Assembly (NCBI GenBank): GCA_012959985.1
Contig: DUCD01000413.1
Span: forward strand, 33,959-70,267
DNA from: Verrucomicrobiales bacterium
Lineage (GTDB): Bacteria > Verrucomicrobiota > Verrucomicrobiia > Limisphaerales > DUCD01
Direction: 5' to 3'
DNA length: 36,309 nt
The translations under genes were made by a program, and so were the position numbers. Under the pieces are notes generated by a model, which saw nothing but the letters and a program-made list of their open reading frames with translations, ran no database searches and was not told the DNA's origin. Shown in pieces: positions 15,507 through 36,203 of the stretch. How positions within the stretch are numbered: position 1 is the stretch's first letter; every line of letters begins with the position of its first letter.

Positions 15507-18500
15507 TTATAATTCCTGCCACTTTACGTTGACTGTTTCGGAGACATCAGAAGGTAAAGTTACGGAGATTTCCTTTCCATCCGGCCAACGAATCCAGACA
15601 TGGGTTTCCTCGAATGGAGCCGCCAGGATTTGAACAAACTCGTCTTGAGATCCATCTCCCGATCCACCATGAATCTCGTGAACCGCTCCCCAATGGGTAT
15701 CGTCATGAAGCCGGAGTTGGGCTCCAATACTGAACGGGTTGCCTGAATGACCGGTCAAACGAATGCGCCGGCCACGTCGCGAGGATTGGTTCACAAATAC
15801 ACGCCCCCCTCCGCTACGACCAATTACTGCCAAGTCGACACAACCATCTTGATTGAAATCACCCACAGCAGCGCTGACTTGGTCTTCAAAAACACGGATT
15901 CCGGAGGATATTGGATCCAAAGGCAGAAAACGTCCATTACCAAGACCTTGCAGAATCTGTCCGACCCCGGACTCCTGCCCCGCCTGACTCAAGGGAACTG
16001 CAGAACAGTTTTGCGCAAGGAAGATATCTTCAAATCCATCAAGATTGAAATCCGCAATCACAGCATTATTTGCCGGTGAAATCTGGGCGACTTCCGGAAG
16101 CGGAACCGCTTCAAATCGGTCTCCCCGGTTCAGAAAGATCATGGATCTGAGTTCGCGTATCTCGTATCGCTCCATTCTGTAAGGCAACAATGCAAGCAAC
16201 TCATCAAGCGACATGGACGAATACTCCTGATAGGTGAGTCTCAAGCCCGGAACAGCCTTTCTGAGATCATCCAAGTCATTCTGTGGAACCCAATCGCCAA
16301 GCTTCCGGTCGAACCCGGCTTCGATCAATGTATAGGACTTCCGATGTTCCGGTTTTCCAACAACTAGGGCATAAGGGTAACCGGAATCAGCTTGAATAGA
16401 AGAATTCAAACCCCGGTTGCAGGCGAGCAGATCCATACGTCCATCATTGTCAAAATCAGCGACTTGGACGGATTGCCAAAGTCCCGAAAAAGAATCCAAT
16501 CCAAGGCGACTCGTTGCATCAACGAATCTCCCTCGCCTGTTCATAAAAACAAGTAGGGATCCCCATTCACGGGAAAGAGCTAAATCAGGAATTCCGTCCC
16601 CGTCCAGGTCAGAAAAAACAGCTCCTGTGATTCCCCCCACAACATCAGAATCCGACATTTCGGTTTCTTCAATTTCGATCTCTCCTTGGCTGTTTCGAAT
16701 CCAACAGCTTTGCATCCCTAAGGGATATTGCTCAGGCCTAGGGATAAACCCGACGAAAGCCTCCAAATGACCATCGACATCAATATCCGCCATGGCAATG
16801 GTCGAGGGAATTCCTCTATCGATCCCAAACAATACTTTCTTGTGCTTTCGACGGGAACCGTTGCCAGTGCTTAAAATCAAACCGGTCTCCTGTTCCTTCC
16901 CGACAGGCGGCAAAACGGATCCGAATGGAATCAAAAGATTGAAGAGGCCCCCTGCTCCACCGTTGCTCAATATTCCCCCGACGCCATTCACAAGGTATTC
17001 TGGGTTTGAATCAGGGTATAATGAGAGGAAAGTCATGTTTTCCTTTTCAAATCGATAGACCCGGATAGGGTTTCGATTGCCCGGGACAGAATCCCTACCG
17101 GCAACCAGGTCCACACGACCATCTAGATCGACATCTATCCATGAAACCCTAGATCCGATTCGTGCAGCTCCATAGGGAAGAAGAGGTTGTTTCTCAAATT
17201 CAATTGCCATCGACGTTGAAGCATTTCCTTCGGAAGGAGAGAGACGAACGCTGATTTCCAGAAACAGGGGCAAGTTCTTTGAAGGGAGCGGCTTTGAATT
17301 CATTAACTCAGGCTCTTGAATTTCATAGATCCGGTTGGATCCAACCTCGCTGATGACGCTGACCTTCCCGCTTCGCCAGAAAACCTTAATCTGCGATGAA
17401 GTTCCTTTCTGATCCAAAGCCGCAAAAACGCGAATGGAATCATCACCGGATAAATACCGTCCCCCTGAGAGGATTTCCTGGGTTTGAGTCATCTCACCAG
17501 CTGTCACCTCGATTCGGGCTCCCACGCCCATGGTGTTCGGACCCCGTCCGCGTAACCTCACCGCAATTCTAGGAGCGGTTGTCTCATTGCGGTAGATTAG
17601 GCATTCTTCATTGAGACAGTTTACGACAATGTCCAGATCCCCATCATTGTCCAGATCGCCCAAGGCCATCCCATGAGATATCCGGTCTGAGGAAAAACCC
17701 CAGTTCCGCCCTATTTCACGAAACTTCCAGTTGCCCAGATTACGGAAAAGCAGATTCGGAACACGAATTTCAGGTGTCGAAAGAATTTCACGTGAAGAGG
17801 TCCGCATCGTTCGTTTTTCATCACTCCGTTTCGCCAGACGATCCCGGTCGTTGGGATTGTGGAGATGGCCATTTGTCACCAGCAGGTCCTCGTATCCGTC
17901 CAGATCAACATCCAGGAAAACTGGAGACCATGACCAGTCGGATGCCTCCACTCCGCTGTACCAGGCAATTTCAGAAAACGTCAAATCTTTGCGCTGATGA
18001 TAAAGCATGTTCCTTGGAGCCTGGGGAAGATCACCGGGCGATTCACCTCGAAAGAGCGTCATTTGTTGACGCTTCCGATGATCCAGCCTTCGACTCAACA
18101 TTTCAGTCACAAAAATATCAGGCAATCCATCACGGTCGATATCGGCAAAATCAACACCCATTGAAGCGTAACTCATGATGCGAAATGCTGAGCCACTCAT
18201 TTCGTTGAATCGACCCTGTCCGTCGTTGATCCATAATCGATCGGGTGTCTGAAAATCATTGCACACAAATATATCAGGGTGTCGGTCCTGATTAACATCA
18301 TAGAACATGACCGCCAATCCGAAATCCGAAGGTTCCTCCATGACGGAGCCGTCCTGGTTTTTGAAGAAACCCTGCGACCAGGAGACTCGACGAAACTGCC
18401 CGACGCCATCATTCAGAAAAAGCGCATCCGGGGCGCCAAATTCCACTAGATTACCGTTGATGATCTTAATCTTGTGGGCATACCTTCCGGTGACTCGAGT

Positions 18501-19154
18501 TTTTCCTCCGACAATTCGAGTGGAAATCCGTGCGCCTGATTTAAGCACTAAACGCTCACCGAAGTTTGCGGCATAAAGATCGAGATCACCATCCCCGTCA
18601 ATATCCGCTAATGCCATCGAGGTGGTGCCGAATCGACTGGCAAAATCAGGAGACAATTCTGTGGTTTCCTTAAACCGGACTCCCTTGTGATTAATGAACA
18701 ATCGAATCCCCGAACTCATCGAGCTTACCAGCAGATCCAGATCCCGATCTCCGTCAACATCCGTGAACACGGCTCCCTTTGACAATTGCCCAGTGCACGA
18801 CACACCGAATGCATCCGCAACTTCTTCGAATTTCCAGTTTCCCAAGTTTCGAAAAAGCCGGTTCGAGTCCGCCATTCCGCAAAAATACAGATCACAGAGA
18901 CCATCGCCATCCACATCAGCCATTGCAATTCCAGAGCCATTCATCAGGCTGTGGTTTCGGACAAGGTCTCTTTCCTCAAGACGATTGGTAAAGGTCAGCC
19001 CGGTAATTCGAGATTCCAAAAGAGTAAAACCATTGGGTTTAGCTCCCGTAAGAGGTTTGACGATTTTCGAACGTGTCTGGCCGTAACCATCCTCCCCCAT
19101 GAAAAGTAAGATGGCGTTGAGCAGCAGAAAACATTGAAACGTAAAAGGTTTCAT
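15507..19154 (-). CDS. Secreted FG-GAP/VCBS + ASPIC/UnbV (CRTAC1-like) protein, paralogue 1
   Basis: Many DxDxDG repeats (ADVDGDGLCDLYFCG, TDVDGDRDLDLL), ASPIC-like VRLRGRGPNTMGVGARIEVTAGEMTQTQEILSGGRYLSGDD; stop of upstream paralogue overlaps its start (TAATG). Confidence 0.92.
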   Translation of the reverse strand: MKPFTFQCFLLLNAILLFMGEDGYGQTRSKIVKPLTGAKPNGFTLLESRITGLTFTNRLEERDLVRNHSLMNGSGIAMADVDGDGLCDLYFCGMADSNRLFRNLGNWKFEEVADAFGVSCTGQLSKGAVFTDVDGDRDLDLLVSSMSSGIRLFINHKGVRFKETTELSPDFASRFGTTSMALADIDGDGDLDLYAANFGERLVLKSGARISTRIVGGKTRVTGRYAHKIKIINGNLVEFGAPDALFLNDGVGQFRRVSWSQGFFKNQDGSVMEEPSDFGLAVMFYDVNQDRHPDIFVCNDFQTPDRLWINDGQGRFNEMSGSAFRIMSYASMGVDFADIDRDGLPDIFVTEMLSRRLDHRKRQQMTLFRGESPGDLPQAPRNMLYHQRKDLTFSEIAWYSGVEASDWSWSPVFLDVDLDGYEDLLVTNGHLHNPNDRDRLAKRSDEKRTMRTSSREILSTPEIRVPNLLFRNLGNWKFREIGRNWGFSSDRISHGMALGDLDNDGDLDIVVNCLNEECLIYRNETTAPRIAVRLRGRGPNTMGVGARIEVTAGEMTQTQEILSGGRYLSGDDSIRVFAALDQKGTSSQIKVFWRSGKVSVISEVGSNRIYEIQEPELMNSKPLPSKNLPLFLEISVRLSPSEGNASTSMAIEFEKQPLLPYGAARIGSRVSWIDVDLDGRVDLVAGRDSVPGNRNPIRVYRFEKENMTFLSLYPDSNPEYLVNGVGGILSNGGAGGLFNLLIPFGSVLPPVGKEQETGLILSTGNGSRRKHKKVLFGIDRGIPSTIAMADIDVDGHLEAFVGFIPRPEQYPLGMQSCWIRNSQGEIEIEETEMSDSDVVGGITGAVFSDLDGDGIPDLALSREWGSLLVFMNRRGRFVDATSRLGLDSFSGLWQSVQVADFDNDGRMDLLACNRGLNSSIQADSGYPYALVVGKPEHRKSYTLIEAGFDRKLGDWVPQNDLDDLRKAVPGLRLTYQEYSSMSLDELLALLPYRMERYEIRELRSMIFLNRGDRFEAVPLPEVAQISPANNAVIADFNLDGFEDIFLAQNCSAVPLSQAGQESGVGQILQGLGNGRFLPLDPISSGIRVFEDQVSAAVGDFNQDGCVDLAVIGRSGGGRVFVNQSSRRGRRIRLTGHSGNPFSIGAQLRLHDDTHWGAVHEIHGGSGDGSQDEFVQILAAPFEETHVWIRWPDGKEISVTLPSDVSETVNVKWQEL

Positions 19155-22100
19155 TAAATCTTCTCCACTCCACCATCTGAGTAGAGCACGAGTTCTTCAG
19201 AATCTTGAGGAATCACATGAACCGTAGTTGCCCCCCCCGGCCAGAGGACATGCACCCGTTCCGGAATTCCATTGTGCAAGTTCATGACTTGTACCGCTGA
19301 ACTCTGCGACCGGAAACCCGACCCGGCATGAACCAATCGAGCCGGTCCCATAAGGCCCTGCCCTTCCAATCGCAGCACGCATCCGATTCCAGTTGAATTC
19401 TCTTTGGAAAACCAAGTTCGAATCCTCAATCCGGGACGAGCCAACTGGTTGACCAATAGTTGGGTCTCCGTTCCATTCTGAGTCACGGCAATATCCAAGC
19501 GCCCGTCCTGATTGAAATCGGCGACCCCACTACTGCGTTGCGCCCCATGAATCCGTATCCCTGATTCGACACTCGCTACGGCGGTCAGAGTTCCCGCTCC
19601 ATCTCCACTTAGAAGCAGCCCAAGGCCGGCATCACTTCGCGGTGTTTTTGATCCGTAGGCAAAAAAGTTCTGCGCCAGAAACACGTCTTCGAATCCATCA
19701 CCATTGAAATCGGCAATATTCACACCGAAAGCCGGCGACCATTGCGCCTGCATCGGTAATGGAACGGCTTCGAATCGATCCCCTCGATTTAGAAAGAGCA
19801 TGGATTCAAATGTCTGAACAACCTTATTCTTTAACTTGCCCTGATAAGCACTCAATAGTTCTTCGATCGTTTTTTCTCCAAACGATTTGTGACCGGACGC
19901 CATCTGACGAACCAAAGGGAAACTCCCCGCGAAAGCGGTCATGTCTCGACGAGGCCACTGTTTTCCGTCGGTGGAACTGATATAGGCTTCTAGAATCTCC
20001 GTTGTGCCGTTCTGATCCACATCGGAATAATGCAACACAACCGGTTGATCCCGGTGATTGCCGTATTGAGTATTGAGCCCCCAGTTCGTCGCCAGAATAT
20101 CCAGCCTTCCGTCTCCATCGATATCACCCGACGTCACTCCATTCCACATTCCAGAATGTTCAAGCGTTCCCCATGCATCTGTCACATCCTTGAATTCTCC
20201 TCCTTGATTAAGGAGCACGCGGATCGCCCCCCATTCACAGGCGAGGACCAGATCGGGAAACCCGTCTGAATTCAGATCCGTGAAAGTGGAACCACTTACC
20301 AATCCCACATTTCTCCAAACCTCAGGTTGATGTGTGTCGAGGATCCAATTCCCATTTTCAAAATGGTATAATGCTGAATCCACCGATTCGGGGTATTGTC
20401 CCGGAATCAATCTCCCTCCGACGAAAACATCGAGATCGCCATCGGCATCGATATCGGCCGCCGACATAGGTCCGACCATCGTCCGGGATTGATGAACCGA
20501 CCCGGCCTTTTGAATTTGAGAAGACTGGATCATCCACTCAAAAACAGATGACTGAACCGACGTATCCAACGATTCATAATTCGAGACGCCGAATAACATC
20601 CTGACACCTGACGTTGAGGTGGGGAATGCCAGGATGGAGACCGATTCTGCTGAAGTAATACCATCGACTACAGTCAAGGATTGGGGTCGAAATCGTTTCC
20701 CGGATTCATTCGGGTACCATTTCAAATCAGCAACGCCGGTGGCATCCATCCCGAAAAACAGATCATCAAACCCGTCATTATTAAAATCCAACCATAGCAC
20801 GGGAGGTCCCGGTTGACTGAATTGGCGAGGCAGTAATGGTTGCCGTGAAAAGTCATCAAAACTGTTTTCAGAATGAGTGTGGGATAAGAGCGAAGAACCA
20901 TTTCGAAACAGGGGTTTCGGATCTGCGGCAATCGGTGCGATCGGAGCCTTAAAATGAGAATAGGTTACTTCATAGACCCGATTGGCCTGAACGTCCTCAA
21001 TTGTGGTGCGACGGCCATCTGCCCAGATGACTTCAATCTCCAAGGAATCTGACTCATCGGGAATGGCAAAAACCCGCATGGGATCATCTCCTGAAAGGTA
21101 ACGCCCACCACTCTGAATCTCCTGACTTTGCACGAGTGTACTGGAAACCAGGCTGACACGGGAACCGATGCCTTGGGAATTACCTGGCGGGCCCTTCAAT
21201 CGGACGCTGATTCTGGGACGACTTGTGAGGTTCCGATAAATCAGGGGAGGCGCATTCAGGCAACTGACCACAACATCCTGGTCTCCATCTAGATCGAGGT
21301 CTGCAAGAGAAATCCCATGAGAAACCTGAGTGGAATGGTATCCCCATTGCCGACCACGCTCTTCGAATGTCAAATCTCCGTTATTCCGGAAAAGGAAGTT
21401 CGGAGTTTTCAAGGCGGGGTATCTTCCAATGTTGTCTCGGGAATCTTTCAAGGACTGCGGACTCAGGTCTCGAATGACTTTCTGGACGTCCTTGTCCTGA
21501 GTGTCATAGGCATGCCCATTGGTCACCAGCAAGTCTTCATACCCGTCCAGATCCACATCCATAAATGCGGCGCACCATGTCCAATCGGAAGCATGCACCC
21601 CGGCAAAATGGGCAATCTCAGCCCAGGAAGAATCCCCACGATTCCAGAACAGAGTATTCATTCGAATCTGAGGCCGTTCGTCAATCACACCCACCTGATA
21701 TTTCTCTGGTGTTTCGGGCCCCATCTGGGTCATCCGCAATTGATGATTTCGACTCAACATGTCCGCCAGAAAAAAATCGTCCACACCGTTTCGATCGATA
21801 TCTGCAAAATCGACACTCATTGAAAAATGGCTGGTATGGCGAACAGCAAAGCTCGACATGGCTTGAAACTGGAGATTGCCCTGATTCAACCAGATTCGAT
21901 CGGGAGTCTGGAAATCATTGCAGACATAGATATCCGGTCTTCCATCCTGATTAATATCCCGGAACGCCACCGAAAGCCCAAGATCCCAATAGGACTCAGA
22001 CAATGGGTTGCCCAGTGGGTCCAGAAAATTTCCATCGCCCCAGGAAACTTTACTGAAATTTCCCTTGCCGTCATTCAGGTAAAAGGCGTCCGGTTCACCG

Positions 22101-22831
22101 AATTCCACCAGTTTACCATCGATGATACGCACTCGGTTTGCATATCTGCCAACGACTCTCTCTTCCCCTGCGATGGTCCGAAACCGCAATCGGCCCCCCG
22201 TTCTTAAGATTGAGTTGGCGCCATAATTGGCGATGTAAAGATCGAGATCTGAATCCCCATCGACATCGGCAAGAGCCATCGAGGTGCTTCCGGTTTTGGC
22301 AACCAGTCCGACGGCTTCGGTGACATTATTGAATTGGCCGTTTCCCTGATTGAAGAAGCAGGCATTCGGCCCACCACAAGAAGTAACGATCAAATCCAAT
22401 TGGTCATCCCCATTGAGATCTCCAAAAACCGCCCCGGTGGAAGACTGATCTTCACAGGCAACTCCTGCCTGTTCCGTAACATTCTCAAACTGCCAGTTCC
22501 CCAAATTACGAAACAAAGCGTTTGGACCTTCCAAGTTACAAAAGTATAGATCACAAAGACCGTCTCCATCGAAATCACCTGCGGCCACTCCGGCGCCATT
22601 CAGCAGGTTGTGGTTGTAACTAACCCGCTTGTAGGAAAGCTGATTCGTAAACTCAACTCCCAGATTGGCAAGATCCAACTCTTCAAAGCCTTCAGACGAG
22701 TCCGATTCCAGTTTGACATCAAACCACCGAAACCCGTCTCCCTGCTTCCATTCCGCTCCCGGCAAAACTAAAGACAACAAACCTTGAATCCAAAGACAAT
22801 AAAACCACTTAGATGGGTGAAAAAATGTCAT
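19154..22831 (-). CDS. Secreted FG-GAP/VCBS + ASPIC/UnbV (CRTAC1-like) protein, paralogue 2
   Basis: Co-linear with the 15507-19154 product; VRLKGPPGNSQGIGSRVSLVSSTLVQSQEIQSGGRYLSGDDPMRVFAI and repeated DxDxDG motifs; N-terminal signal-like segment. Confidence 0.92.
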   Translation of the reverse strand: MTFFHPSKWFYCLWIQGLLSLVLPGAEWKQGDGFRWFDVKLESDSSEGFEELDLANLGVEFTNQLSYKRVSYNHNLLNGAGVAAGDFDGDGLCDLYFCNLEGPNALFRNLGNWQFENVTEQAGVACEDQSSTGAVFGDLNGDDQLDLIVTSCGGPNACFFNQGNGQFNNVTEAVGLVAKTGSTSMALADVDGDSDLDLYIANYGANSILRTGGRLRFRTIAGEERVVGRYANRVRIIDGKLVEFGEPDAFYLNDGKGNFSKVSWGDGNFLDPLGNPLSESYWDLGLSVAFRDINQDGRPDIYVCNDFQTPDRIWLNQGNLQFQAMSSFAVRHTSHFSMSVDFADIDRNGVDDFFLADMLSRNHQLRMTQMGPETPEKYQVGVIDERPQIRMNTLFWNRGDSSWAEIAHFAGVHASDWTWCAAFMDVDLDGYEDLLVTNGHAYDTQDKDVQKVIRDLSPQSLKDSRDNIGRYPALKTPNFLFRNNGDLTFEERGRQWGYHSTQVSHGISLADLDLDGDQDVVVSCLNAPPLIYRNLTSRPRISVRLKGPPGNSQGIGSRVSLVSSTLVQSQEIQSGGRYLSGDDPMRVFAIPDESDSLEIEVIWADGRRTTIEDVQANRVYEVTYSHFKAPIAPIAADPKPLFRNGSSLLSHTHSENSFDDFSRQPLLPRQFSQPGPPVLWLDFNNDGFDDLFFGMDATGVADLKWYPNESGKRFRPQSLTVVDGITSAESVSILAFPTSTSGVRMLFGVSNYESLDTSVQSSVFEWMIQSSQIQKAGSVHQSRTMVGPMSAADIDADGDLDVFVGGRLIPGQYPESVDSALYHFENGNWILDTHQPEVWRNVGLVSGSTFTDLNSDGFPDLVLACEWGAIRVLLNQGGEFKDVTDAWGTLEHSGMWNGVTSGDIDGDGRLDILATNWGLNTQYGNHRDQPVVLHYSDVDQNGTTEILEAYISSTDGKQWPRRDMTAFAGSFPLVRQMASGHKSFGEKTIEELLSAYQGKLKNKVVQTFESMLFLNRGDRFEAVPLPMQAQWSPAFGVNIADFNGDGFEDVFLAQNFFAYGSKTPRSDAGLGLLLSGDGAGTLTAVASVESGIRIHGAQRSSGVADFNQDGRLDIAVTQNGTETQLLVNQLARPGLRIRTWFSKENSTGIGCVLRLEGQGLMGPARLVHAGSGFRSQSSAVQVMNLHNGIPERVHVLWPGGATTVHVIPQDSEELVLYSDGGVEKI

Positions 22832-23217: not shown

Positions 23218-24111
23218 ATGAGCCGACGAAAGAAAAAAAAGCCTGAACAAAAGAAAAAAACACCCAATGGTCAATGGATTTTCGGAATGATTATTCTCGG
23301 TCTGATCGGTGCCGGCATCTACAATCGGATTCAACCTGAGGCCCCCTCGAATCCTCCGCCCCCCCAACATACGAAACCGACAACGCCACTCTCTAAAGGC
23401 TCCCCTACTGAATCGAAGGTGAATTCCAAAGGACCGGTTCAAGCGCCCTCACTGGATCCAAAATTAATTGACCAATTCCCAGGGGATCAGAAATTCGAAT
23501 ATGATCCAGACAAGGCCTATGAGCATCTGGACCGCGGCAACCTGCTTTTTTCGGAACAGAAAATTGCGGAAGCCGGCAGGGAATATGCATTAGCGTCAAA
23601 GTATGATACCGAGGAAGAGGAATCCCTGTTTAATCTCGGAATATGTTTCTCAAGGCTGGGAAATCTCGACAAGGCGATCGAATATTATGAAAAAACTCTG
23701 GAATTAGTGCCGGATTATCCTGAGGTCCTGAACAACTTGGGAAACGCCATTATGCGCAAGGGAGACACCCATCTGGCCGTCAAGAAATTTGAGGAAGCAC
23801 TGAACATACTCCCCAACTATCCGAAGGCATTGAACAACCTCGGCAAGGCCAAGTCCATCCTGCGACTGGAAGGAGAAGCCATGGAGAACTTCGAAAAAGC
23901 TGTCGAAATCGAATCGGATTACTTCGATGCGAGATTCAATCTTGCTATTTCCTACCTCAAGCTGCGTCGACCGGAAGACGCCGTGATAGAGTTCCAGATT
24001 CTTCTGGAAAAAAAACCACAATTCGCCCCGTTGAAAACGTGGCTTGAAAAAGCGGAAAAACTGGTGGAAATCAAGAAGCAGGAAGAAACCAAGAAGAATG
24101 CCAACCCATGA
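23218..24111 (+). CDS. Membrane-anchored TPR-repeat protein
   Basis: Lys-rich start then TM segment WIFGMIILGLIGAGIY, followed by TPR units (ESLFNLGICFSRLGNLDKAIEYYEKTLELVPDYPEVLNNLGNAIMRKGDTHLAVKKFEEAL). Confidence 0.92.
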   Translation: MSRRKKKKPEQKKKTPNGQWIFGMIILGLIGAGIYNRIQPEAPSNPPPPQHTKPTTPLSKGSPTESKVNSKGPVQAPSLDPKLIDQFPGDQKFEYDPDKAYEHLDRGNLLFSEQKIAEAGREYALASKYDTEEEESLFNLGICFSRLGNLDKAIEYYEKTLELVPDYPEVLNNLGNAIMRKGDTHLAVKKFEEALNILPNYPKALNNLGKAKSILRLEGEAMENFEKAVEIESDYFDARFNLAISYLKLRRPEDAVIEFQILLEKKPQFAPLKTWLEKAEKLVEIKKQEETKKNANP

Positions 24112-24123
24112 TCCTCAAACGAA

Positions 24124-26733
24124 GTGAAACAAAAACAGCCTATTGATTCATCACGATCCGCTCCTTCTTCGCCCCATCGAGGATCCGTCTTTGCGATGAC
24201 GATCATCGGTATGTTTTCACTCGTCTTCTTCCTCACTTCTCTCAAAACCCCCACGTCCAACAGCCGTTCGGCAGCACCATCGCCGCAAACTCAGGTTTCA
24301 ACCGTCCATCAGAATATTCAGGAACAAACCGGAACGGAAACAGCCTCTCAGACAGATACTAATTCAACGCTTCTCCCCCCCTCACCTATTACCTTTCCAG
24401 TGCAGGAACTCACCTTGAGCGAAGAAGACCGGAATTATATTTGGAGAACCGAACACCATGGAAATATTCTACGTGATTTCGGGTTTTCCACCCTGAGCGC
24501 CGCTCTTCTTAAAAACTCGAAATCAGAATTCAAGAAACAACTTTCCAATAAGTTTCAAGGCAAGCTGCCTACAACTCCGAAACACACGACCCTAAGTCAA
24601 CCGGGAATGAAGATCGACCGCACCTTAGCGGTAGGTGAGCAATTCGATACAAAAGGTGCTGAGGAATTTACGGAATGGATATTTGGACTGAGACACATGT
24701 TCACCTCCGAGTTGAATGTCCGCTGGCATGTGATCACCCTGTCACCGGAAAAACAGAAGGATTTTGAAGGCGCCTGGCAGGGAACAGGAAAACTGCACCT
24801 CTGGGGAGAACATTCAGAAGGTCAACCGAGTGACTTGTTGATCTACTTTTCAATGAACATCGACAAACTCGAAAAAGAGCATCTTCAGAATAATGGCTGG
24901 CTGGAGGAATGCCGCATTGATGAGATCCTTCAGGGTCAGTCCCGGGAATATCTTTTCCGGGAGGTGGCTGAAGAAAGAGGACTTCAGATCGATCGATTGC
25001 ATGACAACTGGAAATGCGGGAAACGCAGCGACATGGTCCTGAACAGCGGAGGAGTCTACCTTTCAGATTACAATCGCGACGGCATGACCGACCTTCTGAT
25101 CACCGATGTCGCTTCCGAATTCAATCTGGAGCTTTACCAGGGATTACCCAATGGTCGCTTCAAAAATGTAACCCTCGAAATGGGATTGAAGAAACCTGGT
25201 TTAAAGGATGTGCTGCTCGCCGCCTTTGTGGACATCGATGGGGACGGTTGGGAGGATCTGATTCACGGTTGGAAGAATTACCGAAGCGGATGCAGGATTT
25301 ACCGAAACATCGAAGGAAAACGATTTGAAGAAATCACCAAACAAAGTAATTTCCCTTACCTTGTGACCGCTGCGGAAGGATTCAACCCACCGGCCGGCCT
25401 CGCGATTGCTGACTACGATCGGGACGGGAAAGTCGATATATATGTCAGCCGATCCGCCGGCAGCAGTGCCCAGATGGGTTCATGGATTGACGGAAAAACA
25501 GGCGTTGAATCCAATAATCAGTTACTCCGAAATCTCGGCAACTGGCAATTTGAAGATGTCACTACCCGAACCGGAACCGACGGAGATGAACGGTCTACCT
25601 TCAGTTCAGTATGGATGCATGCCAATCAGGATCTCTGGCCCGACCTTTATGTCATTGACGAATTTGGAGATGGTCTTCTTTACCTGAATGAACAGGGAGT
25701 CACATTTAAACCGGTTTCGCTGGTAGACCATCCAACCGATTTCGGTTCTATGGGAGTGACCTGTGGCGATATTGACAATGACGGGTTCATCGACCTCTAC
25801 GTCAACAGCATGTATTCCAAAGCTGGAAAACGGGTCATAGGAAATATTCCCGAAGGCGCCTATACCGATGACATCATGCAGAAACTGATGCGTATGGTGG
25901 ATGGAAGCGAGCTCCATCGAGGCACGGGTAATCTGCAGTTCGAAAGGGTCGGACAGCAAAACCATGTAGATGCGGTGGGATGGGGTTGGGGCGCGGGATT
26001 GTTCGACCTCGATAACGACGGGTTCTTAGATCTTTATGCCACGGCGGGTTTCATCAGTCTTGACCGCACGAAACCGGACGGTTGAAGCTGCCTTTGGCAG
26101 GTTGTCGTGGCACAACCGTTCGACCGTGACTGTAAAGCTCCGGCACCTGGAGAACTGGATCTGGAACTCGAGGAATTCTGGGTTGACGATCCATGGCAAA
26201 TTCAGCAAAGCAATAATTTGAGCAGCTTTGAGAAGAACCGCATCTACCTGAATCATCAGGGATCCGAGTTTATGGAGATCAGCCATCTGACGGCTGCGGA
26301 CAGTGATGGGGATGGACGAAGCGTGGTTGCTGCAGATTTCCGGAATAACGGACATCTCGACCTAGTGGTCCGTCAAGTGGGTGGAGGGCCTCTTCTACTC
26401 TACGAAAACAATTTCCAATCGGGACATTATCTCACGATTTCTCTGAGAGGACGAACAAGTAATCGCCTGGGAATCGGGAGTCGGTTGATCGCAACCATCG
26501 CAAACCATAAAGTGGTGAGGGAACTTTACCCGCTTAATTCATTCAGATCCCAAATGACAAACCAAGTCCATTTCGGATTGGGCAAAGAAGAAGTCATAAC
26601 TGAACTGGAAATCAAATGGCCTTCCGGTGAAAATCAAATTTTCAAAAACATCCAGGCAGATCGACACATCATCCTAACGGAAGGCAATGCCCGAATCGAA
26701 ACCATCCAACCCGGTTCAATTTATCGACCCTAA
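24124..26733 (+). CDS. FG-GAP/VCBS + ASPIC/UnbV (CRTAC1-like) protein with in-frame TGA at 26083-26085: candidate Sec-containing protein or nonsense-disrupted gene
   Basis: GTG start 12 nt after the TPR gene. ORFs 24124-26085 and 26107-26733 are in the same frame with no other stop between them; the downstream part encodes GHYLTISLRGRTSNRLGIGSRLIATIANHKVVRELYPLNSFRSQMTNQVHFGLGKEEVITELEIKWPSGENQIFKNIQADRHIILTEG, a complete ASPIC/UnbV-like domain. Confidence 0.8.
26100..26117 (+). promoter_or_regulatory. Candidate bacterial SECIS-like stem-loop downstream of the in-frame TGA
   Basis: GGTTGT-CGTGGC-ACAACC: perfect 6-bp stem, 6-nt loop with G at loop position 2, loop starts 20 nt after the TGA; possible lower stem 26094-26097 with 26120-26123. 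Confidence 0.45.
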
Positions 26734-30038: not shown

Positions 30039-33000
30039 TTATGGTTCAATCACAAAAAACACGGTAACTCCTGACTCAACAGTATACGGATTCGACTGGT
30101 CGGCAACGACTTCGTATGGCTCTTCAACATTCGGAGAACTCTTGAGTTTACCTCCTCCTTGCCAGGAAATCTGAACCAGCCCTCCCTCCAATAGGGAGAT
30201 AGTGAGTGTTATTTCCTCATCAGAAACATTGGAAACTGGAACAAAAGCCAGATAGTTGAAATCAAGGACACCTCCGGTCATTTCCCAACGCACGGTTTTG
30301 ACACCAGATGCAGTAACAGTGACAGGAATTCCCGAATTACCTTCCTCATGGGCTCGATAAAAAGCACCCGTGCTCCAGTCGCCGGAGCCTTGACCACTGA
30401 ATTCTCCAATCCATTCAACATTTGAATCGGCTACCAGAGGATTCTCAACCCACCCGATTCTGGTTCGGGGGTGCAAAGACGGATTGGTTTGGTCACCACC
30501 GGCAGAAACATGAGCGAACACATTGTATTCCGTTTCATTTTCGGGAAAATCCCGGGTAAAATTGTACCAGTCGCCAACACCAGCCCATCCGATCTTGTAA
30601 TTTGACGACACCGTGAAAGCGCCCCGATCTGCATTGCCCGTCCCGTTGAATTCAATCATTTCGGGAGCCGGTCCAGTTCCATTGGTTGAATTCCCTCGGT
30701 TGTCCTGCTCGATGGCTCTGAAACGGTAGGCTTTGGAGGCGTCACTGGAAGGATTATTCCCGGTTTCAAAAAAATCGATCCCTTGGGTTGCGCCCAGTCC
30801 GTCATAGGCACCACCGTCGTAGGGTTCGCCATATGGACCTCCGTTGGGCTTGTCCACACCATTAATTTGCCACTGACCCGGGTTCCCAGCCGCATCCGTG
30901 TAATTAAAATCCTCGACCTCAATGAACCGAGTGCCGGCTACGGCCTCAAACAGCCCTAGCATGCTGAAAGTTGTGGTGATGGCGACTTCGTCGCTGGCTG
31001 AGAATTCACCATCGTTAACAGTAAGTTTCAGAATCCAAGTGCCCTCGTCAGGAATGGTGATCGTAGGGTTCAATGTATGAGGATCAGAGAATTCGATTTG
31101 CTCCGGACCGGAGATTTGAGTCCAGACGACACTCAGCTCTGCAGGCGGATTCGGCAAACCGTCGTCTTGCACGCTGGCGTTCAGTTCGATCGGGGTGGGG
31201 TAAATGCCGACAACAACGTTCACGGCATCACCGGCATCGACTGTAGGAACGCGATTCCCGTCATTATTCAATCCGGGGGAAGCTGAACCAAGGCTGGCCC
31301 GCCAGTTGATGGCATCGTCACCATATCCGGACGGGTTGATGCGCTCAAGTGATGGACCGAATCCGTCGGCTTCGGAGGGCCAGGGTTCGCGATTGTCGTA
31401 ACGAACACGATCAACTGCGATGTAAGGCGTGTTTGTCTCACCAGTCTCGGAATCAACAACAGGCATTCCGGGGCGAAGTAAGCTCAACGTCTCCCCATTA
31501 TCCCGAAGGCTACCGCCAAAAGGACCGAAAATCGCAATTTCCTGCGGCAAATTGTTCACACTTCGAAACCGCTCAGGATCGACTGCAGATACAACACCGA
31601 CTCCGTTAGGTGGAAGCGTCACGCCGGAACTGAATCCAAAGCCGACGCCGTCCAGTTTCCAAGTGTTTTCCGGATTCTCCGGATCGAACAAATCAACGGG
31701 GTGATCCGTGATATTTTTAATTTCGATAAACTCAAGATCGTTACCGGAAGGGTTGTAACGAATTTCGTTAATAACGACAGGTCCGACTCTGGGCCCGATG
31801 TTGGGCTCGTTGAAACTGGTTTCGATTTGAGGTGGAAAGCGGGAAACATCGCGACTGGTTAGGTAACGTCCAAAGGAGACTCCGGATGCACTGGCATCAA
31901 AACGGAAACCGTCGGTGTAGCCGGTCAGGTTTCCGTCTACATCAGCCGAAAACAGAAATGCTTCCTCACCTAACGAGCTAAAGGTAAAACTACCGTCTTT
32001 GCCAGGTGTTGGGTTGAACTGATCTTCCGTGAATACGAGGAATCCTCCAACCGGGATGACAACGTCAGCCGGGATACGGAATTTATTGGGTTGCTGCAGG
32101 TTGTCACTGATTCTCCAATGGCTGATATCAGCGGGTTCATCCGTAGGATTATACAGCTCAATGGTGTCCAACTGCGGAGCGTCTGTGTTGGTAAGGATTT
32201 CGTTAATCACGACGGTCGGAATGCCGGACGGTCTGTCATCTGCGCCGGGAGAACCGCCGATGTCGGCACTGGACCGCCAGTTACCCCCATTGGTCGGGTC
32301 GAAGGCCTCATTGCTGTTCCGGGGGACCAGGGAGAAGCCCTGACCGTCCGCGAACAAGGGCCACGGCGGGCCGTCGTTGTATGCAAAACTCAATATCTCT
32401 TCACCGGAGGCATGAACGAGCGTCAGTCGTTCTCCGCCGTTATTGAGACGACCCGTGTATTGTCCAATAGGAGCCAGATCCGGATATCGGAGTTGGAAAT
32501 CAACGAGACTCTGAACAATGAGAACCACCTCCCCGGCCCCAATACGGGTACCCGGTGGAAACCGAAAGTCGATGCCACTGGTGAAATGGACGTCACTCAA
32601 GTCGATCTCTTCAGTGGTCATATTCGTCAATTCAATGAACTCCAATTCACCAACATCGGATTCCGTCGGGTGATACATTATCTCTGTAACCACAAGATCC
32701 GTGAAAGTTTGACGGCGAATGAAGGAGGCTTCGGTGAGGGCGCTCCAGATACTCCCAAACCGAGTGCGGGATTTGATCGTTCCGTTTTCGAGCAATGGGA
32801 TGGGATCGGTGTAACGGATTGCAGAAGGGGAGATGGCACCACCAGAAAGGCGTGGGTCGCTCCCATCCACCGTAAAGTAAATCGACCCGTTCGGTGAGTT
32901 AACGCTGATCTCAAAGTCAGCGGCTACAACGCCGCCATGTTGATTGTATTCGGGAGCTGCCAAGGTCGGATAGAAACCTTTGGACTTGAGTTGATTGAAG

Positions 33001-36000
33001 ACAATGTCCGAGCGACGGGGAAAGTAGTTTTCACGGATTGTATTAACCTCGGGAAGCCAGGCATTGTCACGTGTCAATGGCGTGCTACGCTTCGAATCTC
33101 CCCAACGGGCCGATTCGGCAACAACGGCCCGGTCGATCTGCTCAATACGTTTATCGAAGAGCGTGGTCGCTACTTCGACCGTCAACAGGCCCCCATTAAA
33201 GAAATGGCGATGGACATGATCAGCAACCAACAATCGAAACTCCGCATTCGCGCTCAGTTGCTGCCAGAACCACTGGGGATTGCTTTGAGGAAAATTATCT
33301 CCGGCGGGCCAAGGTCCGGTGCGATCTTGATTCACATTGAGGAGAGTGTGCTCGGCATCGTGCACAAAAGATTTAAAACCTTCCCGTTGATTACGGTTTC
33401 GGATTGAGAAAAAGTTGTTCGGACCTCTGTTCGCGCCAAAATTGGATATCGGGGCGTCCAAATTGCCTCCGTAAAGAATGATCAGCATGTAGTCGATCAG
33501 ATTGGGTAGATCGATCAAGACAGGAAAATCAAGGTTTGGGGTCCCGTCAGGATTGTTACCCTGCACACGCTGATAGGCAGCATCACTCTTCAATCCTGCT
33601 TTGGCCTGCTCCCAAAGATCCCGCCATGCTTCAATATTGCCGTCGGTGGCGGCGGCAATATAGCCTTGATTGGTATCCACTTTTATAACGTCATAGTCTT
33701 CCTTTGAACCACCGTAGTAGGTTTCTCCAAAGGAAGCTTCCGGTCGTTCGTCCGTATTGTACAAACCCCAATAGTAACCATTGATGTAAAGGTGATAGAA
33801 CTCTCCGCGCTCAGCCTGATGTCCCATGGCGAGCTGCACATCACGACTGAATTGGTCACGAATGAAGATGCCTTTTGAATCCCCTTGAAAACTCCATGAG
33901 TAGTTTTGGAAGGTCCGCAAGTCGATATTGTCGAAGGTGTCGGCTCCGTTGTCTCCAAAAAGGGGATGACGAAGTTTCGATTTGCCATACTCCTCGCGGA
34001 AGAAAAGGCGGAAAGCGTGTTTGGGGTTTTGCTCACTGCGACTGAATCCACCACGGACCCGTATCCCGGCGTCGATTTGAAACTCATCATCACCGGCAGG
34101 ATCGATCAATTCGACGGATGCAGGCCTTTCCCAATCCCGGCCGTCTTGGCGTGGGTTGGCGTAGATGCCCCCGCTCCGACTGAAGAGGTCGTCCAGATCC
34201 ATGACGATCGAGAAGGACGGAATGGTTTTAAGGTCATCAATGATCGTGTCGCGGTACTGAGGGCTGTTCACGACATCGGGATCCATTCCATAATCAAGCA
34301 CGTTGGATCCCCACTTGTTTGGCCAACCATCTTGAGCCGCCGTTTGGGGAGATTGGCGGATAACATCATCAAGGAAAAGATAGGTTTGGGTATCAACGTT
34401 CGAAGCCTCGAAACCGTCTTTGAACGCCACCGCCCGAAGAATCGTTGTTTTTTCGATACGGATAGGGCCTTCGTATAGTTGTCCCGTATTTTCGGTAGGC
34501 GGGAGCCCATTGGTGGTAAACCGTATCTGAGCACCTTCGGTTTCAGTGGTAATCTCTAAATCGAACGGTTCCTCATAAAAACCACGGTCGTGACTAAAGT
34601 TGGTATCGGCAGTAAAGGCGAAAAAGCCGCCCGTGTTTGCTTCCCCGGGTGTGGGAGTTGAGAAGTAGTGGGTGGTGTCGTTTTCAATCTTGATGTCGGT
34701 CAGTTCAACCGCGAAGAGGAAATCGTCGTCGGAAACGGATGCGTTGAGCGCCTGAATGGCCAGCACGTTCTTTCCCGGTCTCAGGAGGTCGGGAAGATTA
34801 ATGACTTCCAGAGCGGTGCTGTCGGACGCCGATTTAGCGGACGTCGCGGTTCCGTTCCAATCGGGGTTTTCCGGAGCGTTGCGACGGGCAACCTCTTCGC
34901 CGTTGAGATAGGCTATGAAACCGTCGTTATACATCGCGGCCAAGGTAAGCGTGTTGAACTCGGCACCCTCGGCGACCTGGAATGGGAACCGTAAGTAAAG
35001 AGAGGCATTGTGGCCCTTCAAGTCTGACCCGAGATCGGTTTCAAACGAGAATCCGGTGGAGTGATTATCTGGAGCATTGTCGGAAGAATGAGTGGTTCGC
35101 ACGGCGAGCCCACCCTTAGCGGTGTCACCCACGAGGCGAAACGCGTTTTCAGTCCAGAATGAGCGGGTTCCTTGAGCGGCCCAGAATTCCAGCGAGGCAC
35201 CGCCGCCCCACTCGTAATGCACGAGGCGGAGCTCGTAGTCCCCGGCTTCCGCGAATTGGAAGGTGGCGAGACTGTCCGCCGGCCCCCTTGCTCCGGGGAA
35301 AGCGAGGCGGTGGCTGCCGATGTCAAGCCCGAAACCATCGTCACTATTGACGCCGAAGGTCCAATTACCGGAAGAAGGGATGGTGATGGTCGCGGTGGCT
35401 TCGATCACGAAATTGTCGATATCCCCGCTCGCGCCTGGAAAAGGTTGATTGTTCGAGTAATGGGCGCCTCCGCCGGATCCGACGTAATTGAGTTGGGCTG
35501 CGATAACGGTCGTGACCGATGACTGAAGGCCGGGACTTGAAATCACGGTCTCGGCGCGGGCAAGATTGTTAAGGGTGGTCGAAGATTTGATATTGCGCAC
35601 CAGGAATCCCGGGACGGAGGATTGATAACCCACAGGCTGCGCGGCGGTGCGCCAAGCGGAATCATCGAAGTCGGGATCGATCCACAGTTCGTTGAGATCC
35701 CCATTCTCGGGAACGAGGTAGGCACCGGAATCATCCAGGGTGACTAAGGATTGTCGTGTCACGATTTGGCCCACACCATAAGAATTGTCGCCAGACTGTT
35801 CGGGATACTCCGGATCGAACGCGTGTTCCACAGTGACCCCGTCGGATTGTATTAAGGCGAGGTATTCTCCGTTGGCGCCCAAGCTGAAATTCGTGTGAAG
35901 CGGGACGGTTGGATCACGACGATCCTTGCCGGAGGCGAAAACGATAAAGAAGTCTTTCGGATTGATCGTCACAGCAGGAAACCGCCATTTTCCGGGCAAC

Positions 36001-36203
36001 TCCGGGTCGTCCGTCAAACGCCAATTCTCCAAATTCACGGGAGCGTCGCTGGAGTTGAAGAGTTCGATCCAGTCCGGAGTATCGCCGTCTTCGTCGATGA
36101 ATGAAGAATTATTGCCTGCCATGAACTCTGAGATCTGAATTTGGCCAGAAACAGAGGAAACTCCCAGGAGAGCCGTTGCTATAATTAAAATAATACGATG
36201 CAT
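30039..36203 (-). CDS. Giant secreted protein: lamin-tail domains, PA14-like domain, chitobiase-like domain, CotH kinase-like domain, C-terminal CBM6-like domain
   Basis: Signal peptide MHRIILIIATALLGVSSVSG; LTD motifs QISEFMAGNNSSFIDEDGDTPDWIELFN and VVNEIRYNPSGNDLEFIEIKN-type repeats; CotH-like NPKHAFRLFFREEYGKSKLRHPLFG ... FIRDQFSRDV ... FVHDAEHTLLN; C-terminal VEDFNYTDAAGNPGQWQ... Confidence 0.9.
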   Translation of the reverse strand: MHRIILIIATALLGVSSVSGQIQISEFMAGNNSSFIDEDGDTPDWIELFNSSDAPVNLENWRLTDDPELPGKWRFPAVTINPKDFFIVFASGKDRRDPTVPLHTNFSLGANGEYLALIQSDGVTVEHAFDPEYPEQSGDNSYGVGQIVTRQSLVTLDDSGAYLVPENGDLNELWIDPDFDDSAWRTAAQPVGYQSSVPGFLVRNIKSSTTLNNLARAETVISSPGLQSSVTTVIAAQLNYVGSGGGAHYSNNQPFPGASGDIDNFVIEATATITIPSSGNWTFGVNSDDGFGLDIGSHRLAFPGARGPADSLATFQFAEAGDYELRLVHYEWGGGASLEFWAAQGTRSFWTENAFRLVGDTAKGGLAVRTTHSSDNAPDNHSTGFSFETDLGSDLKGHNASLYLRFPFQVAEGAEFNTLTLAAMYNDGFIAYLNGEEVARRNAPENPDWNGTATSAKSASDSTALEVINLPDLLRPGKNVLAIQALNASVSDDDFLFAVELTDIKIENDTTHYFSTPTPGEANTGGFFAFTADTNFSHDRGFYEEPFDLEITTETEGAQIRFTTNGLPPTENTGQLYEGPIRIEKTTILRAVAFKDGFEASNVDTQTYLFLDDVIRQSPQTAAQDGWPNKWGSNVLDYGMDPDVVNSPQYRDTIIDDLKTIPSFSIVMDLDDLFSRSGGIYANPRQDGRDWERPASVELIDPAGDDEFQIDAGIRVRGGFSRSEQNPKHAFRLFFREEYGKSKLRHPLFGDNGADTFDNIDLRTFQNYSWSFQGDSKGIFIRDQFSRDVQLAMGHQAERGEFYHLYINGYYWGLYNTDERPEASFGETYYGGSKEDYDVIKVDTNQGYIAAATDGNIEAWRDLWEQAKAGLKSDAAYQRVQGNNPDGTPNLDFPVLIDLPNLIDYMLIILYGGNLDAPISNFGANRGPNNFFSIRNRNQREGFKSFVHDAEHTLLNVNQDRTGPWPAGDNFPQSNPQWFWQQLSANAEFRLLVADHVHRHFFNGGLLTVEVATTLFDKRIEQIDRAVVAESARWGDSKRSTPLTRDNAWLPEVNTIRENYFPRRSDIVFNQLKSKGFYPTLAAPEYNQHGGVVAADFEISVNSPNGSIYFTVDGSDPRLSGGAISPSAIRYTDPIPLLENGTIKSRTRFGSIWSALTEASFIRRQTFTDLVVTEIMYHPTESDVGELEFIELTNMTTEEIDLSDVHFTSGIDFRFPPGTRIGAGEVVLIVQSLVDFQLRYPDLAPIGQYTGRLNNGGERLTLVHASGEEILSFAYNDGPPWPLFADGQGFSLVPRNSNEAFDPTNGGNWRSSADIGGSPGADDRPSGIPTVVINEILTNTDAPQLDTIELYNPTDEPADISHWRISDNLQQPNKFRIPADVVIPVGGFLVFTEDQFNPTPGKDGSFTFSSLGEEAFLFSADVDGNLTGYTDGFRFDASASGVSFGRYLTSRDVSRFPPQIETSFNEPNIGPRVGPVVINEIRYNPSGNDLEFIEIKNITDHPVDLFDPENPENTWKLDGVGFGFSSGVTLPPNGVGVVSAVDPERFRSVNNLPQEIAIFGPFGGSLRDNGETLSLLRPGMPVVDSETGETNTPYIAVDRVRYDNREPWPSEADGFGPSLERINPSGYGDDAINWRASLGSASPGLNNDGNRVPTVDAGDAVNVVVGIYPTPIELNASVQDDGLPNPPAELSVVWTQISGPEQIEFSDPHTLNPTITIPDEGTWILKLTVNDGEFSASDEVAITTTFSMLGLFEAVAGTRFIEVEDFNYTDAAGNPGQWQINGVDKPNGGPYGEPYDGGAYDGLGATQGIDFFETGNNPSSDASKAYRFRAIEQDNRGNSTNGTGPAPEMIEFNGTGNADRGAFTVSSNYKIGWAGVGDWYNFTRDFPENETEYNVFAHVSAGGDQTNPSLHPRTRIGWVENPLVADSNVEWIGEFSGQGSGDWSTGAFYRAHEEGNSGIPVTVTASGVKTVRWEMTGGVLDFNYLAFVPVSNVSDEEITLTISLLEGGLVQISWQGGGKLKSSPNVEEPYEVVADQSNPYTVESGVTVFFVIEP

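Follow-up and report, generated by a model that had tools for sequence, protein, structure and literature searches.

The in-frame UGA at positions 26083–26085 of the window, i.e., the 36,309-nt stretch of Verrucomicrobiales DNA analysed here, is very probably decoded as selenocysteine (Sec), which would make the gene that carries it a full-length selenoprotein gene; this confidence applies to the decoding and does not extend to the function of the protein. Comparison with homologous sequences shows that this UGA is maintained as a sense codon, and the hairpin downstream of it as RNA. A sequence-only reading of the window had proposed a selenoprotein candidate at this site, and the proposal is strongly supported by the TGA column in homologues, by selection on the hairpin and by the Sec machinery. 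In bacteria, SelB–GTP and Sec-tRNA-Sec bind a SECIS hairpin and insert Sec at the UGA. For the present gene, SelB–GTP with Sec-tRNA-Sec would bind the hairpin listed in Table 1, and insertion of Sec at residue 654 would allow ribosomes to complete an 869-aa protein.

The reading frame is broken once, by the TGA, and ends with a TAA at 26731–26733. Two candidate start codons are present, GTG at 24124 and ATG at 24196, the latter lying directly 5′ of a hydrophobic stretch; the ATG is the likelier start, as it precedes this hydrophobic export or anchor segment. A Pfam search of the window protein found five FG-GAP_3 stretches (125.7 bits) followed by UnbV_ASPIC on the 3′ side of the TGA (60.9 bits, cut-off 23.4), both exceeding the curated cut-offs, in agreement with the earlier observation that the frame stays open past the TGA into a normal ASPIC/UnbV C-terminus. 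The TGA position, the length of the joined product, the TPR-repeat gene upstream and all coordinates given previously were confirmed. The TPR gene and the selenoprotein gene are probably co-transcribed in this genome.

Table 1. Positions of the very probable selenoprotein gene, its proposed recoding elements and the adjoining gene in the window
Feature	Position	Strand	Description
TPR-repeat protein gene	23218..24111	+	Ends 12 nt upstream of the selenoprotein gene
Selenoprotein gene (very probable)	24124..26733	+	869 aa when TGA is Sec; N-terminal domain, FG-GAP beta-propeller, ASPIC/UnbV domain
In-frame TGA	26083..26085	+	Very probably read as Sec, residue 654, motif PDG-U-S-C-LW; same codon is TGA in 59 clade-1 and 8 clade-2 genes
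TGC, Cys656	26089..26091	+	Second residue of U-x-C; invariant in clade 1 (49/49 genes, 40/40 alignment rows)
Putative SECIS hairpin GGUUGU-CGUGGC-ACAACC	26100..26117	+	6-bp stem, 6-nt loop; starts 14 nt past the TGA, loop at 20 nt

The host genome, assembled to 7.5 Mb in 524 contigs, contains 48 UnbV_ASPIC matches, a strong expansion of ASPIC paralogues. Two of these are large proteins of ~1,220 aa encoded at 15507–22831 (minus strand), immediately upstream of the selenoprotein gene. The minus strand at 30039–36203 encodes a 2054-aa protein with lamin-tail, CotH kinase, PA14 and chitobiase C-terminal domains.

An initial search of relatives returned two orthologues and several paralogues with one internal TGA apiece; all eight TGAs of this search, including that of the window, fall in one alignment column, and, among the matches listed, ASPIC proteins at a greater distance mostly lack an internal TGA. 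A scan of 85,462 species genomes was then unable to favour TGA, as its seed patterns were drawn from sequence upstream of the TGA site, its query carried Cys in place of Sec and tblastn penalises stops. The scan yielded 46 clade-1 genes with TGA at this codon in 46/46, one of which (L069) is the orthologue in genome G024 found again. In 149 Planctomycetota genomes drawn separately, 12 matches were found in 9 genomes, with TGA in every one; one of the 12 is the gene of the K23_9 genome already found and one belongs to clade 2. The totals are 67 TGA genes (66 besides that of the window), comprising 59 of clade 1 (PDG-U-x-C) and eight of clade 2 (DL-U). In clade 1 the codon is TGA in 59/59 genes, none of which has Cys at this column; near-copies may be included in this count, 56 of the 59 being distinct over the 45 nt from the TGA. 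A maximum-likelihood tree recovered clade 1 as monophyletic (SH-aLRT 100) and placed one Asp member within clade 2. Another TGA (G111) and a TAG (G108) inside matches were rejected as recoding sites, being C-terminal, ordinary terminators that the search had passed.

The carriers belong to Planctomycetota, Verrucomicrobiota and, in one case, an Acidobacteriota (Thermoanaerobaculia) MAG. They include the complete isolate genome K23_9 (L095; CP036526), whose gene reads KPDG-U-TCFWR at the site and which also has selB and tRNA-Sec; the window genome and G024 are of the same order. A search of plasmids returned distant relatives only. ASPIC relatives of the DY-E-xxFW type that lack Sec mostly have Glu or Asp at the Sec column, and rarely Cys, and the closest Sec-less relative of clade 2 (L118) reads DL-D-SFWW. 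Bacteroidota-type relatives have a hydrophobic residue there, in a region where the alignment is looser. Cys occupies the column in two adjacent ASPIC genes of G047, a distant relative (L066, G047:C43; motif K/R-DYC-T-x-FW). Each of these two genes has a second Cys four residues upstream, and G047 has selB and tRNA-Sec. The alignment of homologues proposed earlier thus places TGA at exactly this column in 67 genes, and Cys in a more distant pair.

Protein-level conservation persists past the TGA. Over 200 residues on each side, identity between the window protein and its closest paralogue is 64% before and 66% after the TGA, and other relatives give, e.g., 50.5/54% and 54.5/57.5%; dN against the closest paralogue is 0.30 before and 0.28 after, with synonymous sites saturated. 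The decay after the TGA that would mark a degraded gene is therefore not seen in these comparisons. A paralogue in the same genome (L055, G000:C188:17764–20069; 62% identical) keeps both the TGA and the hairpin; its upstream part lies in a different frame with an overlap of a few bases, which may reflect an assembly error, a recent frameshift or recoding.

The hairpin had been described from the window alone as an exact stem, with 20 nt from the TGA to the loop and G as the second loop base, and this description is correct. Across 49 clade-1 genes, synonymous variation over codons −40 to +60 around the TGA mostly fits the codon usage of each gene and collapses precisely where the hairpin lies, at codons +6 to +10 (z −13 to −22). 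Variation also falls sharply at two Ser codons, −9 and +47, probably because serine codons are divided into AGY and TCN sets. Among the frozen clade-1 codons are Ala +6 (GCT in 44/45), Val +7 (GTC in 45/47) and Val +8 (GTG in 47/47). Changes on both sides occur in three of the six stem pairs, with a covariation score reached by none of 500 shuffles, and the inner 5-bp stem is kept in 53 of the 56 distinct sequences, compared with a mean of 2.6 and a maximum of 9 after synonymous-codon randomisation. The loops of these 56 sequences read CGUGUC (38), CGUGAC (11) or one of a few others. A hairpin is found at the same place in all eight clade-2 genes, with differing sequences. These patterns indicate that the hairpin is under selection at the RNA level. 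The folding check suggested earlier did not bear it out: when the 45 nt of the window were folded alone, the hairpin was not the minimum-energy structure (z −0.3), so that the support for it is comparative; this failure was counted as a limit of single-sequence folding.

The machinery expected for Sec decoding, i.e., tRNA-Sec, selA, selB and selD, was found in the host genome, as the sequence-only reading would require. The tRNA-Sec scores 68.8 bits and was confirmed by ARAGORN as tRNA-SeC with anticodon tca; selA, recognised from its sequence by inspection, lies on the same 3.5-kb contig, as does selB (287 bits, cut-off 242). On another contig, selD (365 bits) contains its own in-frame TGA near the N-terminus (MAIKHLFKKPTLTSLSKTCG-U-AAKLSP), which means that the host already requires Sec decoding for a known selenoprotein. 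Among 44 carrier genomes, selB is above cut-off in 39 and a strong tRNA-Sec is present in three of the remaining five, so that 42 have one or the other. The MAGs G063 and G074 have neither above cut-off, possibly because contigs are missing, and G108 has no selB. G001, also without selB, appeared to lack Sec machinery; this was rejected when a tRNA-Sec was located on the same contig as the gene, ~1.6 kb downstream and near the contig end. As background, selB is present in 19 of 58 genomes of the window's order and in 102 of 149 Planctomycetota; because it is so common in the latter, the enrichment in carriers is real but modest, and co-occurrence alone is modest evidence.

The gene adjoins selB in L069 and L075, followed by a transglutaminase-core gene and selA/selD; selA near the gene was identified by profile in L075 only, not in L069. 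The transglutaminase-core gene within this Verrucomicrobiota selB–selA–selD cluster (L069, 5145–10406; L075, 7047–12248) has a counterpart in the sel operon of a Rhodopirellula, as described in a 2016 paper (PMC4807772). Clustering of the neighbourhoods of 47 loci identified no partner: Sec genes and other ASPIC genes aside, each neighbour is found in seven loci at most. A TPR partner thus finds no support as a trait of the family.

Other explanations of the TGA were weighed against Sec decoding. One is that the gene is decaying or mis-assembled and its TGA is a sequencing error or a nonsense mutation; the sequence-only reading had considered a nonsense mutation (e.g., TGG to TGA) plausible. 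This would be in keeping with a source that is a fragmented MAG of 524 contigs and with the C188 paralogue, whose upstream part lies in another frame. However, all 59 clade-1 genes share this TGA, although they are divergent and come from many assemblies, one of them a complete isolate genome, and conservation continues beyond it with no decay, making this explanation extremely unlikely. A change of the genome-wide code such that TGA specifies an amino acid has a vanishingly small probability: this TGA aside, nothing counts for it, and against it are the tRNA-Sec with anticodon tca, the in-frame TGA of selD near its N-terminus and the C188 paralogue, which has an internal TGA in the same genome yet terminates at TGA.

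Somewhat more serious, though still very unlikely, is the possibility that the stop is read through without Sec, or that ribosomes terminate there and start again at the GTG within the hairpin (26107), giving two polypeptides. Readthrough can be promoted by a hairpin, and the GTG at codon +8, a possible start codon, is nearly invariant (47/49). However, the segment between the TGA and the GTG is conserved at the protein level, with Cys +2 and Trp +4 in 49/49 genes even as codons +1 to +3 vary at the third position; the GTG is replaced in some family members (loop GGCTGC); and the carriers have Sec machinery, in some of them adjoining the gene. Decoding of the UGA as Sec thus remains the preferred reading.

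An AlphaFold2 model from a 46-row alignment (pLDDT 85.8, pTM 0.85) places residue 654 as the first residue of a short helix (654–663) that lies after the last propeller repeat and before the ASPIC domain. The top PDB match is murine CRTAC1 (9etn_A; sequence 3.4e-35; fold E 2.2e-22, TM 0.70 by target length). The protein is probably exported and would fold as a CRTAC1-like beta-propeller with an ASPIC domain. Before the propeller, the model shows a confident alpha/beta N-terminal domain (residues ~95–275, window 24406–24948); a Foldseek match to the ketosteroid-isomerase-like (NTF2-like) structure 3hx8 (TM 0.63 by target) probably corresponds to this domain. Lipoprotein-like N-termini were seen by inspection in G024 (LWAVACS) and G001 (LSWAGCS), and in the window protein a hydrophobic segment follows Met25; from these N-termini, export of the protein is likely.

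Redox sites typically have a reactive Sec or Cys at the N-terminus of a helix. In clade 2, a thioredoxin-like domain (AhpC-TSA/Redoxin) is fused to two of three proteins scanned, and the clade-2 copies in the window's genome show the matching WCxxC motif by inspection. The helix N-terminal Sec, the U-x-C motif and the fused domain together make thiol/selenol redox chemistry the leading proposal for Sec654, with about even confidence. Sec654 would then be the reactive centre, forming a selenenylsulfide with Cys656 in clade 1; in clade 2 the Sec would be reduced by the fused thioredoxin-like domain. A competing proposal, concerning function only, is that Sec serves as a metal ligand at the propeller/ASPIC junction, at a position occupied in relatives by a conserved acidic residue. 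FG-GAP propellers are metal-binding, and Sec-less relatives of the same motif type have Glu or Asp (DY-E-xxFW; DL-D-SFWW in L118) and rarely Cys. However, Sec is always paired with Cys at +2 in clade 1, thioredoxin-like domains are fused to clade-2 proteins and the predicted location at the start of a helix is characteristic of redox Sec or Cys; a metal-ligand role, the main alternative, is the less likely of the two. Support for the redox chemistry and TPR partnership suggested earlier is weak: Sec-less relatives mostly have an acidic residue rather than Cys at the column, although redox is still the leading proposal, and a TPR partnership finds no counterpart in the unconserved neighbourhoods.

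As a very probable bacterial selenoprotein, the protein is of a known kind, while the family itself appears to be new. With known prokaryotic selenoproteins it shares the UGA, the downstream SECIS hairpin and SelA/SelB/SelC/SelD. A 2026 review (PMC13188914) counts 119 prokaryotic selenoprotein families or subfamilies, its table including those it cites from Haft and Tolstoy 2023 and 2025; most of the characterised ones have a thioredoxin-like fold, two listed families share the U-x-C motif with the window clade, and no ASPIC/UnbV, FG-GAP/VCBS or CRTAC1 protein is among the 119. Cys homologues exist in almost all selenoprotein families (PMC12013277), unlike in the window's Sec clade, which has no Cys members and whose wider family has Glu or Asp; this deep-Sep paper makes no mention of FG-GAP, VCBS or CRTAC1. 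The 2016 paper (PMC4807772) treats planctomycete selenoproteins in Porphyra-associated genomes, with candidates in its Table S9. It concerns the same phylum as the planctomycete members here, and its sel operon with a transglutaminase-core gene resembles that of L069; ASPIC or FG-GAP selenoproteins are not mentioned in its main text. No ASPIC/UnbV, FG-GAP or CRTAC1 selenoprotein was found in the searchable literature, which takes in few subscription papers or bioRxiv preprints, and no NCBIfam model matches the window protein. Like CRTAC1 and ASPIC/UnbV proteins (9etn; PF07593, PF13517), the window protein has an FG-GAP propeller followed by ASPIC/UnbV. Unlike mammalian CRTAC1, the bacterial proteins have an extra N-terminal domain and Sec; murine CRTAC1 is unaligned over the Sec-bearing segment (profile positions 264–413).

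The balance leans slightly towards a previously undescribed, exported beta-propeller selenoprotein family of Planctomycetota and Verrucomicrobiota in which Sec is exchanged with an acidic residue rather than with Cys, so that Sec would act in catalysis or metal binding outside the thioredoxin world. As Cys members are absent from clade 1, searches that rely on Cys/Sec pairs would tend to miss it; if the proposal is true, such methods could easily have overlooked the family, which suggests that further Sec-only families may remain hidden. In annotations, genes of this family probably appear as pseudogenes or as two separate fragments. The result would add a large family of selenoproteins whose fold, an FG-GAP propeller with an ASPIC domain, is missing from the 2026 inventory (PMC13188914), and it may offer a handle on the biochemistry of CRTAC1/ASPIC proteins: one conserved, putatively reactive residue at the junction between propeller and ASPIC domain.
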